Shown here piece after piece: positions 1,955 through 33,519 of a stretch of 33,519 nucleotides of DNA. The translations under genes were made by a program, and so were the position numbers. The DNA is from an uncultured Bacilli bacterium. GTDB lineage: Bacteria > Bacillota_I > Bacilli_A > RF39 > UBA660. The first letter of the stretch is position 1. Each line of letters begins with the position of its first letter. Under the pieces are notes generated by a model. The model was not told the origin of the DNA and ran no database searches. It saw nothing but the letters and a program-made list of their open reading frames with translations. The stretch spans positions 1 through 33,519 of the forward strand of contig CALVQQ010000006.1 of NCBI GenBank assembly GCA_944358255.1, read 5' to 3'.

Positions 1955-2608
1955 ATGGAACTATTTATTGTAATATATAGAACTATCTTTTTCTACTTAT
2001 TTATTTTGATTATATTTAGAGTAATGGGTAAAAGGGAAGTGGGACAACTTAGTATTCAAGACTTAGTTGTAAGTATTTTAATTGCTGAATTAGTTGCTAT
2101 AAGTATAGAAGAAATAGAGGAAAGTTTATGGTTTACTGTTATTCCTATTATGATTTTAGTTGTTTTTGAATTGATTGCTGCTTTTATGTCTTTAAAGTTT
2201 AATAAGTTTAGAAATATAATGGAAGGTAAACCAGCACTTATAATTAATCAAGGTAAAATTAATTTTAAGGAAATGGTAAAACAAAGATATACTCTTGATG
2301 ATTTATTAGTCCATCTTCGTAGTAAGGATATAAAAAGTATAAATGATGTTGAATATGCTATACTTGAGAATAACGGTAATTTGAGTGTATTTAAATATAA
2401 TTTTTTAAGAATGAAAAGCGAGAATCCGTTTCCTTTAATTTTAGATGGTATAATTCAACATGATACTTTAAGATATTTAAAAAAAGATGACAAATGGCTT
2501 AAAGAATTGATTAGAAAAGAAAATACATCTATTGATGAGATATTTTATGCATTTTATAAAAATCAAAAAGCATATATTATAAAAAAAAGTGATTTGGTAA
2601 GGTTCTAA
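1955..2608 (+). CDS. YetF/YrbG-like DUF421 membrane protein
   Basis: A 217-residue protein with three N-terminal membrane helices and a cytoplasmic alpha/beta C-terminal domain, as in the YetF family. Recognisable segments are RVMGKREVGQLS followed by QDLVVSILIAEL after helix 1, then YTLDDLLVHLRSKDI and VEYAILENNGNLSV in the soluble domain. The start is the ATG at 1955 with GGTGA at 1946-1950; the longer frame from 1922 adds 11 residues with no ribosome-binding site. The 3' end overlaps the last 4 bases of convergent spoVB. B. subtilis YrbG sits in the same place beside spoVB. YetF-family proteins have been linked to spore membranes, but the function here is not shown. Confidence 0.85.
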   Translation: MELFIVIYRTIFFYLFILIIFRVMGKREVGQLSIQDLVVSILIAELVAISIEEIEESLWFTVIPIMILVVFELIAAFMSLKFNKFRNIMEGKPALIINQGKINFKEMVKQRYTLDDLLVHLRSKDIKSINDVEYAILENNGNLSVFKYNFLRMKSENPFPLILDGIIQHDTLRYLKKDDKWLKELIRKENTSIDEIFYAFYKNQKAYIIKKSDLVRF

Positions 2609-2623
2609 TATAGAACTTTTTTT
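2602..2623 (+). terminator. Terminator of the DUF421 gene, inside the spoVB 3' end
   Basis: GTTCTA (2602-2607), loop ATA and TAGAAC (2611-2616) are followed by seven T residues. The arms overlap the DUF421 stop codon and the spoVB stop codon on the other strand. Confidence 0.65.
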
Positions 2624-3909
2624 ATTGTCTTTATATAACATAATGTACTGAATAATAAACTAACTATAATTGATATGATAAGTGAATACATTCCGATTTT
2701 AAAGAAAGACGTGATAAAAATAATTAAAAGCTTAATAACTGAACTTCCTATTGTTATATACATACTTTCTTTAGATTTATCTAGTGCCTGTAATGAATTT
2801 GATAATGGCATATCTATAAAATACATTAACATGAATGGGGCTAATACTTTTATGTAATTTACTCCTAAATTTGTGTTATAAATTAAATTTAAAAAATAGT
2901 TTGGAAAAAGATATATTATAATTGTAGATACTAATCCAATAAGTAGACTCAATGAAACGATTTGTTTAATTCTTGTTATACATTTTTTCTTATTTCCAAT
3001 GTAAAAATACTTTGATAGTTCTGGTATTAATGCTGTAGAAATTGATTGAGTAAAAAACTGTGGAATAAGTAGTAAACCTAGTACATAACCATTTATAATT
3101 CCATATTCAGTTAAGATAAAATTTTTTGAATATCCAACATATAATAAAACATTCGTTAAAATTATTGGTTCAAAAAAGTGTGCTAAACTACCTACAACTT
3201 TACTTGAAGTCGATGGAACACTTATATTTAATACATCTTTTATATCTCTTTTATTTGGTTTTATATCTTCTTTTTGTATTTTTACTCCTTTTGGAAGGCC
3301 AAGAAGCATTACTACAACTGAAAAGCTTTCACTTAATATATTTACTAATATTATTACTGATATTGTTAGTTCAACGCTTATTTCTATACATTTTGGAATA
3401 CATATTATTAAAATTGCAAGTCTTAAGATTTGTTCACTTATATTTGATAAAATATATGGAAGCATTCTTTGTTTACCCCAAAAATATCCTTTAATTATAC
3501 TTGAAAGGCCAATAAATGGTAATGTAAAACCAATACATATTATTGGATAAATAAGTCTCCCTTCTTTTAAAAATATTGTTGCAAGTGGTCTTGATATTAT
3601 AAATAATATTATAATTGTTATAATGTTAAATAATAATGATACTGGTATGATTGAAAAAATAACTTTTTTGCTGCTTCGTTTTGGTATTGCAACTAATTTA
3701 CTTATTGCAATCGGAAAAGATAATGTTGCAATTACAATAAATAATGAAAAAGTAGGCATTAATAAACTATATAAGCCTAAGCCTTCGGTACCTAAATATC
3801 TTGAAATAATTATTCTTAAAATAAATCCTAAAAATTTTGATAAAAAGCCCCCAGTTAATAAAATAAATGTTGAAGCAAAAAATTTGTTTTTAAATAACTT
3901 TTTAATCAT
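2605..3909 (-). CDS. spoVB: SpoVB-like MATE/MOP-superfamily flippase
   Basis: A membrane protein of about 434 residues with roughly 12-14 hydrophobic helices and the N-terminal pattern of the polysaccharide/lipid exporter family (FLSKFLGFILRIIISRYLG, then GLYSLLMP). SpoVB of B. subtilis is needed for spore cortex formation and is thought to flip a lipid-linked cell wall precursor; MurJ and other MOP exporters are related. The position beside the DUF421 and TIGR04086 genes copies the Bacillus spoVB neighbourhood and favours SpoVB over a general MurJ. The start is uncertain: ATG 3909 gives the family-like start MIKKLFKNK, while ATG 3933 would add 8 residues; neither has a good ribosome-binding site. 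It is divergent from hisS. Confidence 0.85.
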   Translation of the reverse strand: MIKKLFKNKFFASTFILLTGGFLSKFLGFILRIIISRYLGTEGLGLYSLLMPTFSLFIVIATLSFPIAISKLVAIPKRSSKKVIFSIIPVSLLFNIITIIILFIISRPLATIFLKEGRLIYPIICIGFTLPFIGLSSIIKGYFWGKQRMLPYILSNISEQILRLAILIICIPKCIEISVELTISVIILVNILSESFSVVVMLLGLPKGVKIQKEDIKPNKRDIKDVLNISVPSTSSKVVGSLAHFFEPIILTNVLLYVGYSKNFILTEYGIINGYVLGLLLIPQFFTQSISTALIPELSKYFYIGNKKKCITRIKQIVSLSLLIGLVSTIIIYLFPNYFLNLIYNTNLGVNYIKVLAPFMLMYFIDMPLSNSLQALDKSKESMYITIGSSVIKLLIIFITSFFKIGMYSLIISIIVSLLFSTLCYIKTIKKVLY

Positions 3910-3940
3910 ATTTAAATATATGAGAAAATACATAAAAAAA

Positions 3941-18093: not shown

Positions 18094-18681
18094 TTAGAAA
18101 AAAATACCTAATATAAAGTGATTTAAATAAATTTCTAATATACTACTTAATAATAACACTACTAGAAATGATATATACAAAATAAACACTTTTTTACAAA
18201 AAATTCTCAAATTTATTGTATCGTTATTATATATGGATCTCATTATTTTGTAACTTATTGATACCATTATTATTGAGAAAAGTATAAAAACCACTATGTT
18301 TATTATTTCATGTGGAAATGTAAATATTAAACTATATATAAAACCTTTTATGCCAAATATCATTATAAAACTACTCATTAAAAAGCCTGTTAAAAATCCC
18401 TTATAAAAAATAACAAAAAATATAATTGGTGTAAATATAATTGTAATTGAAGATACCCAAATTATCGTTAAATATAGTAAGTTATTCTTAAAACTATTTA
18501 AAATTGAATTTAAAGTGTTACTAGAACTACTTACTAAACTCAAATATTCTTCTATTTCTGATTTTATAATAAGTTTGTCCACTTCACTAATAAAAAATAA
18601 AAATATTATTCCAAAAACTATTCCAATTAAAAATGTTACAATTACTGGTAAATTAAATTTTTTATTAATTATTTTTTTCAT
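18094..18681 (-). CDS. spoIIM: Stage II sporulation protein M (SpoIIM)
   Basis: A 195-residue integral membrane protein, close to the length of B. subtilis SpoIIM (about 214). It has one N-terminal helix (residues 11-31), an extracytoplasmic loop, then four more helices. The family's conserved core FYKGFLTGFLMSSFIMIFG followed by FTFPHEIINI (glycines, then a Pro-His-Glu near a helix start) is present. In spore formers SpoIIM joins SpoIID and SpoIIP in the engulfment complex that remodels peptidoglycan. The related DUF95 proteins are the alternative. It is divergent from the 35-residue ORF at 18745 and lies upstream of mnmA on the same strand. The ribosome-binding site is weak. Confidence 0.85.
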   Translation of the reverse strand: MKKIINKKFNLPVIVTFLIGIVFGIIFLFFISEVDKLIIKSEIEEYLSLVSSSSNTLNSILNSFKNNLLYLTIIWVSSITIIFTPIIFFVIFYKGFLTGFLMSSFIMIFGIKGFIYSLIFTFPHEIINIVVFILFSIIMVSISYKIMRSIYNNDTINLRIFCKKVFILYISFLVVLLLSSILEIYLNHFILGIFF

Positions 18682-19676: not shown

Positions 19677-19701
19677 ATTAAAAAAGGCTAATTTTCGCCT
19701 T
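19677..19701 (-). terminator. Terminator at the end of spoIVB
   Basis: AAGGC (19684-19688) and GCCTT (19697-19701) form a short stem overlapping the spoIVB stop codon, followed on the minus strand by a T run (plus-strand A from 19680). Confidence 0.5.
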
Positions 19702-20662
19702 CTTCTAACATTGTTCTAATAAATATTGCATAACCTTTTGTAACATCATCTACTACTACGTGAGTTACCGCACCTATTATTTTATTATTTTGTATTATAG
19801 GGCTTCCGCTCATTCCTTGTACTACGCCTCCGGTTTCTTCAAGCAATTTTTCATCGGTAATTTTAAAGCTTATTGCTTTAGAAGTATCTATGCTTCTTTC
19901 TTCTTTTTTTGTAATTTCTATTTCATATTTTTCTTTGTCCTCTCCATCTATTGTAGTATATATATATGCTTTTCCTATTTCTATTTCATCAAAGGCTGCA
20001 ACCTTTAATGGTTCAGTATTTGGCATATTCACTTCATAACTACCGAATATTCCTTTTTTTGTGTTTTCAACAATAGTTCCTAATGTACTTTTAAAATCAA
20101 TTGTTGCATTTTTACTTCCTACAGTTCCATTAGCACTTCTATCTACGCTATTTACATAGCTTTCATAAATGTTACCTGATCTTACTTCTACTATATTATT
20201 TGTCTCATTCATAGTTATTTCATGTCCTAAAGCTCCATAGATTTTAGTCACTGGATCTATATATGTAAGAGTTCCTACTCCGTTTATTTTTTCTTTAATG
20301 TATAATCCAGTTTTAAATACACTTCCTTCTTTTATAATGTTTAAATATGTTTCAATTGTTTTACCATTTCGCTCTATTGTTATGTTTATTTTTTCATCTT
20401 TGATGTTTGAAGATATCGTTTTAGTCATTTCATCGATAGAAGTTACTTCACTCCCTTCTATTTTTGTAATTATATCTCCTACTTTAAGTGTTTCTTTTCC
20501 AATATATTTATCATCGACTTTATAAAAACCTACTACTGTTAAACCTTTAGAATTTATAGTTATTCCGATGTTTTCTCCACCAGGTATTATATATTCTGAA
20601 TAAGCAAGTAGTTCTAATGGCATAATTATGGCTAATAGAAGTGATATCATAATTTTTTTCAT
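19688..20662 (-). CDS. spoIVB: SpoIVB serine peptidase (S55 family)
   Basis: In Bacillus this secreted protease, made in the forespore, signals to the mother cell by cleaving SpoIVFA so that pro-sigma-K is processed. The 324-residue protein has an N-terminal signal/anchor helix (residues 3-20), a PDZ domain (about 35-110) and the S55 peptidase core with catalytic H147 (GALGHE) and S285 (GMSGSPII, in a G-x-S-G-x-P context). It is shorter than B. subtilis SpoIVB (about 425) but keeps all key parts. recN and spo0A, its neighbours in Bacillus, are absent. It lies between uppS and the accessory block, separated from the latter by a hairpin. Confidence 0.92.
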   Translation of the reverse strand: MKKIMISLLLAIIMPLELLAYSEYIIPGGENIGITINSKGLTVVGFYKVDDKYIGKETLKVGDIITKIEGSEVTSIDEMTKTISSNIKDEKINITIERNGKTIETYLNIIKEGSVFKTGLYIKEKINGVGTLTYIDPVTKIYGALGHEITMNETNNIVEVRSGNIYESYVNSVDRSANGTVGSKNATIDFKSTLGTIVENTKKGIFGSYEVNMPNTEPLKVAAFDEIEIGKAYIYTTIDGEDKEKYEIEITKKEERSIDTSKAISFKITDEKLLEETGGVVQGMSGSPIIQNNKIIGAVTHVVVDDVTKGYAIFIRTMLEEGEN

Positions 20663-32429: not shown

Positions 32430-32566
32430 AAAAATCACTATATAAATTATACATTATTTATTGTTAATTTTAAATAAGTATTATTTTAAATATTTTGCTA
32501 TTTTTAACTGGATTAATTATAGTTTAAGTGTTAAAATAAAGAATATTTTATTGGAGGAATATATCT

Positions 32567-33519
32567 ATGTTATTTGTTGAAAAAAATTTACCAAAGCCAC
32601 TTGATGATAAAGAGATTTTAGAATATTTTATTAGATTTCAAAATGGTGATTTAAAATCTAGAGAAATTATTATAAACCATAATATTAAATTAGTATTATA
32701 TAGAGTTACTGGTAAATTTTCTTCTTATCCATACGATATGGACGAGTTGGTTTCAATTGGATTAATGGGTTTAATAAAAGCAGTAGATACTTTTGATATA
32801 AATAAAGAAGTTAAGTTTTCTACCTATGCTATGAAATGTATAGATAATGAGATTTTATTGTTCATACGAAAAAATAAAACACATAAAGAACATGTTAGTT
32901 TATCTTCTCCTATTTCTACAAATAAAGATGGTAGTGAATTGTTTCTAAAAGATGTATTATTGACTTCCGATGAAGATTTTGTATCTTCAATTGAAGAAAG
33001 AGAATTATGTGAAAAAATGAAAAAAGTAATTGAAAATTTGCCTGATCGTGAAAAGCAAATTATTACTTTATATTTTGGTTTTAATTGTAATCCTCTTACT
33101 CAAGAAAAAATTGGTATTCAATTGGGGTTATCTAGGTCACATATTTCAAGAATCATAACCGACACTTTAAAAACAATAAAATTGCAATTAGAAAATAAGG
33201 AGTCTGAAAATAAAAGAAGATTAAAAACTATATATGAATATTTTAGTGATTTTTCAAAAGAAGAAATAGACAATATGTTATCACAACTTAATGAAAATGA
33301 GAAAGAATTAGTAAGAATGCGCTACGGCGATGATTTAGAACATCCTGTTACTGATCCATCTTGGACTAGAGAAAATAGCTATATCTTTTATCGTTCCTTA
33401 GTTCCAAAAATGAAAAGATTACTAAAAAATACGACTAAACCTATTTATAAAAATAGAAAATTGAAAACTATTTATGAATATTTTAGTGATTTTTCAAAAG
33501 AAGAAATAGATAATATGTT
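32567..33519 (+). CDS. Sigma-E/K-like sigma factor with C-terminal tandem repeats (partial)
   Basis: A sigma-70-family factor that runs off the window after 317 codons. Region 2 (about 35-105) has ELVSIGLMGLIKAVDTFD and KFSTYAMKCIDNEILLFIR, the pattern of sporulation factors sigma-E and sigma-K. Region 4 (about 153-205) has LPDREKQIITLYFG and a helix-turn-helix ending SRSHISRI. Normal factors end there. Here an extension follows: residue 219 starts TIYEYFSDFSKEEIDNML with LNENEKELVRMRYGDDLEHPVT, and residue 299 starts a second copy exactly 80 residues later, cut off by the window end. The start ATG has TTGGAGGA upstream. Sigma-E normally has a membrane pro-sequence; none is present. Confidence 0.88.
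   Translation, partial: MLFVEKNLPKPLDDKEILEYFIRFQNGDLKSREIIINHNIKLVLYRVTGKFSSYPYDMDELVSIGLMGLIKAVDTFDINKEVKFSTYAMKCIDNEILLFIRKNKTHKEHVSLSSPISTNKDGSELFLKDVLLTSDEDFVSSIEERELCEKMKKVIENLPDREKQIITLYFGFNCNPLTQEKIGIQLGLSRSHISRIITDTLKTIKLQLENKESENKRRLKTIYEYFSDFSKEEIDNMLSQLNENEKELVRMRYGDDLEHPVTDPSWTRENSYIFYRSLVPKMKRLLKNTTKPIYKNRKLKTIYEYFSDFSKEEIDNM
33221..33519 (+). repeat. 240-bp in-frame tandem repeat in the sigma gene
   Basis: Bases 33221-33279 and 33461-33519 match at 56 of 59 positions, all three differences being single substitutions. The period of 240 bp equals 80 codons. The second copy is cut by the window end, so the true number of copies is unknown. Confidence 0.85.

Follow-up and report, generated by a model that had tools for sequence, protein, structure and literature searches.

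We describe a sigma factor in which a complete core is followed by a tail of tandem 80-residue units, and in which profile comparison gives good support to the derivation of these units from sigma region 4. The gene (32567–33519, + strand) stands at the end of the window – the whole stretch of DNA that was analysed, 33,519 nucleotides in length – and the window is in turn the entire contig C6, one of the 52 that make up an 878-kb draft genome. By its sequence the protein is of the SigE/SigK type, an accessory and seventh sigma factor in a Bacilli bacterium that keeps its sporulation sigma set. Sigma factors are among the best studied of bacterial proteins, and we found no paper that describes region 4 serially duplicated into a tail. 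An earlier, sequence-only reading of the window knew of no characterised sigma factor of such build; one with a tandem or duplicated region 4 was likewise not found in the open-access literature, which is weak evidence of absence.

A sigma factor gene divided between two contigs

The reading frame is a genuine gene: it opens with ATG, is preceded by a ribosome-binding site read from the sequence (GGAGG, 32553–32557, + strand, nine bases 5′ of the start codon) and meets no stop before the window ends. Farther upstream, in an AT-rich region, a putative housekeeping promoter can be made out by eye (TTGCTA–17 bp–TATAGT, 32495–32523); the candidate is retained in G003, a congener and sister species.

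Pfam places the protein in the sigma-70 family, both diagnostic regions lying above their cut-offs. Region 2 (residues 44–104; 32696–32878, + strand) matches PF04542 at 50.9 bits against a cut-off of 24, and the whole window protein matches PF04545 at 62.7 bits against 24.1, the best of two stretches being the canonical region 4 (residues 155–205; 33029–33181, + strand). The complete regions 2 and 4 of the earlier reading are thereby borne out. SigK and SigE are the best NCBIfam matches, but the protein falls below both cut-offs for SigK (TIGR02846, 185.8 against 298.65; NF004471, 201.2 against 252) and both for SigE (TIGR02835, 159.1 against 348.6; NF006158, 174.8 against 339). The same genome encodes six other sigma factors, identified by best model and gene context as RpoD, SigH, SigF, SigE, SigG and SigK. 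Among its sporulation factors SigK alone, encoded on contig C12, passes its own equivalog cut-off (305.1 against 298.65 for TIGR02846); the rest were named by best match and gene order, for example spoIIGA-sigE-sigG. Being nearest to SigK and SigE yet far under the cut-offs of both, the window factor is an extra, seventh member of the set. Its region 2.4 and the recognition helix of its region 4 resemble those of SigE and SigK, and it would be expected to recognise SigE/SigK-like promoters. Elsewhere in the window, genes resembling SpoVB, SpoIIM and SpoIVB by eye (2605–3933, 18094–18681 and 19688–20662) fit a retained sporulation set. The obgE gene is apparently split between contigs C30 and C12 (L005 8856–9530 and L148 2–694), which would probably put sigK roughly 10 kb from the repeat-bearing sigma gene.

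Like SigK and SigE, the window factor has a core of sigma2 and sigma4 with no region 3; unlike them it carries a long repeat tail, and the genome has a separate SigK. Another structural analogy is offered by the ECF sigma factors with C-terminal extensions, in which a part is likewise added behind a sigma2–sigma4 core; in ECF42 and ECF57 this part consists of repeat proteins (TPR, WD40) (PMC8999054). The ECF extensions are nonetheless unrelated folds, whereas the tail described here consists of sigma4 relatives on cores that are SigE/K- or RpoD-like and not ECF. Pfam searches of the window protein and of its orthologue gave no domain of the TPR, WD40, SnoaL or Cys-rich type.

The repeats begin after residue 218 with a period of exactly 240 nucleotides, or 80 residues. 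The window holds the whole of unit 1 (residues 219–298; 33221–33460, + strand), which sequence comparison, hhalign and structure prediction describe as a sigma4-derived bead plus a basic linker, and the first 59 nucleotides (19 residues) of unit 2 (33461–33519, + strand). The frame does not stop there. Contig C30 opens with 77 bases identical to the end of C6 (33443–33519, + strand), a sequence that is repeated inside the gene and at which the assembly broke, and the frame runs on in C30 to base 804. Unit 2 is completed at C30 19–258; it shares 237 of 240 nucleotides and all 80 residues with unit 1, from which it departs by three synonymous changes only. A third, diverged copy (205 of 240 nucleotides identical) precedes about 100 C-terminal residues and a stop. 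The joined protein is thus at least 559 residues long, with sigma2 and sigma4 followed by three or more units and by a C-terminal domain; the exact 80-residue repeat in at least two copies, noticed in the window, is confirmed and extended. The join is sound, since G003 carries the gene uninterrupted on one 94-kb contig (four units, 639 residues), with uvrC to one side of it and yigZ, spoIIP and gpr to the other, as here. The 77-mer at which the assembly broke occurs at least twice in the gene, and three units is therefore a lower bound for the present genome and not a fixed number.

Descent of the repeat unit from region 4

On iteration a cap profile became mixed with true sigma region 4, and pure sets were therefore rebuilt for the hhalign tests, unit and true region 4 sequences being drawn from non-overlapping places. 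A profile of 108 units matched one of 58 true region 4 sequences with a probability of 94.8 and a score of 39.6; sixty column shuffles reached a maximum score of 13.8 (probability at most 1.8%), and comparison of the unit profile with region 2 or another helix-turn-helix scored about 8. When a units-only profile was run over whole genomes of a class sample, the six matches outside the family at E ≤ 1e-4 were all to sigma factors: one was ECF-like, and the other five were RpoD-like and matched in region 4. NusA (L182), matched by the first unit profile, was a false positive.

A third line of evidence comes from a related protein of 1850 residues at locus L175, in which a complete sigma-70 is succeeded by extra copies whose alignment with region 4 extends through the helix-turn-helix (46, 22, 18, 24, 26, 13 and 25 bits), with unit-type matches between them. 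The gene (L175 2752–8304) encodes a graded run from full sigma4 copies to units, and from this gradation the case for serial duplication of region 4, followed by decay, is good. The profile match, the restriction of outside matches to sigma factors and the L175 intermediates together make the derivation of the unit from region 4 well supported. The family shows a DNA-reading domain in the course of becoming another module, and at L175 the intermediates can still be seen.

The unit and the C-terminal domain are homologous to the Pfam region 4 families (PF04545, PF08281) by profile comparison, but a single unit lies under the cut-offs of both (16.9 against 24.1 and 17.3 against 25.7, respectively). 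Pfam, NCBIfam, PHROGs and PADLOC matched the unit to sigma region 4 models or to noise only, and comparison with PDB sequences gave no significant match. Pfam side matches on the repeats – FakA-like_C, PARG_cat_N, p16-Arc, Peptidase_U32 and Wolframin – were judged repeat noise.

An AlphaFold2 model of the unit (42 units) has a mean pLDDT of 90.5 and helices at 15–23, 27–37 and 52–74. It keeps two 4.1-type helices; a loop (38–51) replaces the first helix of the helix-turn-helix, and 52–74 forms one long helix, so that the predicted unit is without a helix-turn-helix for the −35 element. These results refine the proposal that the extension is serial copies of half of region 4. The alignment of residues 241–262 with 158–178 on which that proposal was built corresponds to the region 4.1 part of the homology, and the region 4 origin stands. 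"Half" is not quite right: the unit has conserved features of its own, IYEY at the N-terminus and PKMKRLL in the last helix, and the model gives it one long helix where the helix-turn-helix would be. Sigma region 4 structures rank first in Foldseek searches with the unit model, although weakly (E about 1, TM 0.3–0.5); homology is accordingly argued from sequence, and the fold has moved away.

Nor does the tail consist of units only. Its C-terminal domain matches sigma4 in hhalign with a probability of 98.0 over 62 columns, helix-turn-helix included, and the full-length G003 model places helices there at 581–591, 601–608 and 612–623 with moderate confidence. By profile and model this domain is a second, separate sigma4 relative that keeps the helix-turn-helix order. 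In the same model, built on a 14-row alignment and with a pTM of 0.25, the units are separate, compact helical beads, and the linkers that join them, below pLDDT 50, are predicted to be flexible.

Distribution, host proteins and evolution

Within the data searched, the module is confined to a single family of uncultured Bacilli. Of 241 genomes sampled from the same order, which may be GTDB RF39, all of them in that family, 90 match at E ≤ 1e-4, the weaker matches including ordinary region 4, and about 65 (counted from the table) at E ≤ 1e-6. Nothing outside the family matched at 1e-6 among 392 genomes of the phylum, and searches of viral contigs, phages and plasmids gave no relatives of the unit. 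All 40 named loci are metagenome-assembled or otherwise uncultured (Bacilli, Bacillota/Firmicutes, Tenericutes, Erysipelotrichaceae or simply bacterium). Proteins with the module carry between 1 and 16 units each, and a looser cut-off calls up to 19.

The main build is sigma2–sigma4–units–C-terminal domain, on SigE/K-like and RpoD-like cores alike. The unit is not peculiar to sigma factors: units without sigma2 occur at the N-terminus of metallophosphoesterases, on a TPR protein and as bare arrays, the longest of 1864 residues, and the same sigma4-derived module has moved onto other types of protein. Two genomes, G082 and G141, both incomplete, yielded the phosphoesterase form alone and no sigma-borne unit. 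Nine loci (L110, L111, L112, L121, L130, L132, L133, L139 and L141) have an N-terminal unit on proteins of about 410–470 residues without sigma2; the two that were scanned, L111 and L130, have a calcineurin-like phosphoesterase domain, and L130 also a weak helix-turn-helix match. At L173 (3069–13456) two adjoining giant genes, of 1864 and 1568 residues, consist almost wholly of units, about 14–19 in each, without a sigma core, and at L076 (4039–11057) four long sigma-factor paralogues stand in tandem, two with units and two without. The RpoD-like members (residues 1–200 of the L119 protein, and relatives) have in common an N-terminal domain of about 200 residues with no Pfam match; the idea that it is a decayed sigma2 was rejected, hhalign giving 14.0 against a shuffled maximum of 14.7.

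The repeat-bearing sigma gene evolves fast, judging by the sequences compared. The sigma cores of G000 and G003 share 84% identity at an omega of 0.45, whereas six of the seven neighbours tested are 95–98% identical with omega 0.04–0.13; the seventh, a transglutaminase-like gene, is 86% identical (omega 0.37). The gene is also accessory, for two congeners are without it at the same locus: in G001 and G002 the same flanking sequence encloses uvrC–yigZ gaps of 91 and 82 bases (L192 5971–6061 and L193 6238–6319), and profile searches found no unit elsewhere in either genome. Units group by protein, 35 of 64 having their closest relative within the same protein against at most 8 in shuffles, which makes their expansion look repeated and partly recent.

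A conserved neighbouring anti-sigma gene or operon partner was searched for and none was found. A tyrosine recombinase (Phage_integrase) stands immediately 5′ of the gene with units, on the same strand, at five further loci (L105 2208–3305, L109 3803–4909, L111 4658–5752, L112 3238–4332 and L139 4706–5812); it adjoins sigma-type and phosphoesterase-type unit genes alike.

What the tail may do

Our favoured though tentative reading, at a little short of even confidence, is that the sigma factor is otherwise competent and that its tail is a tethered, multivalent array for docking proteins. In region 4 of sigma70, contact with the beta-flap is made by residues in or near H1, H2 and H5, recognition of the −35 element being left to the helix-turn-helix; AsiA turns that helix-turn-helix into one continuous helix unable to bind DNA (PMC2988021). 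The beads keep the 4.1-type helices that normally hold the beta-flap, and it is this that suggests docking. The tail would have arisen by serial duplication and decay of region 4; the core would still load onto RNA polymerase and read SigE/SigK-like promoters, while the beads, as sigma4 fixed in a shape that does not read DNA but retains the 4.1 side, would dock on RNA polymerase, perhaps at the beta-flap, or on a sigma4-recognising partner. The same bead would bring the phosphoesterase and TPR proteins that carry it to the same target. Recombination between near-identical 240-bp repeats can alter copy number in frame, and this would tune the strength of docking. Against this, the weak Foldseek likeness means that contact with the beta-flap cannot be assumed, and the most conserved residues include the unit-specific IYEY and PKMKRLL, so that the unit may have a surface of its own. 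If the beads do bind RNA polymerase or sigma4-attacking proteins, they would constitute a natural, length-tunable handle on bacterial transcription; the tail is in any event a testable case of copy-number variation within a transcription factor.

The tail might instead be autoinhibitory, its beads vying with the sigma4 of the core for the beta-flap, or masking sigma2 and sigma4, until freed by a signal or a partner, in the manner of C-terminal extensions in several ECF sigma factors. ECF41 is known to have C-terminal extensions that inhibit (PMC8999054), the beads resemble sigma4, and the lack of a recurrent anti-sigma neighbour makes regulation in cis plausible. We nonetheless think autoinhibition unlikely. 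Units on sigma2-less proteins and in bare arrays have no sigma core to inhibit, and their occurrence in G082 and G141 favours a general target over a unit–unit partnership and argues against pure autoinhibition; in the full-length model, itself weak, the tail does not pack against the core. Less probable again, and distinctly doubtful, is the broader proposal that the unit is a new portable domain – sigma4 minus its DNA-reading helix, a polymerase- or anti-sigma-binding bead – expanded by lineages as a docking or decoy device of variable length, whether on sigma factors, on phosphoesterases or in bare arrays, possibly against phage proteins that attack sigma4.

Could the repeats be an unstable expansion with little function, tolerated on a dispensable gene? 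The raised omega (0.45) extends to the core, presence is patchy, two congeners lack the gene and the L175 copies span a range of decay. The idea is hard to credit, however, when omega stays below 1 (0.2–0.5 between diverged units), frames of up to 1864 residues remain open and conservation of the unit motifs reaches across many genera and other types of protein.

A role in contacting upstream promoter DNA, through the basic last helix of the beads or through the C-terminal sigma4-type domain, has in its favour the basic second half of the unit (mean net charge +3.4), the basic linkers (+4) and the helix-turn-helix order retained in the C-terminal domain. We regard it as improbable, because the unit, acidic in its first half (−4.1), is about neutral as a whole and the predicted bead has no helix-turn-helix.

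Least probable is that the beads are decoys that soak up sigma4-binding proteins of phage or host, such as AsiA, and so spare the essential sigma factors: the accessory, fast-evolving gene with its clean empty site in congeners, the recombinase beside unit genes, the many-copy arrays without a sigma core and the capacity of phage AsiA to bind and remodel region 4 (PMC2988021) all lean towards it, but most members keep an intact sigma core that a decoy does not need, no defence neighbours were identified, and the match to a defence model is limited to the generic sigma core. That model is MzaA of the MZA anti-phage system, also a large protein with a sigma-70 core, which NCBIfam and PADLOC models match; the window protein reaches 75.7 bits with NF041931 against a cut-off of 800, and the neighbours of its gene are uvrC and yigZ.
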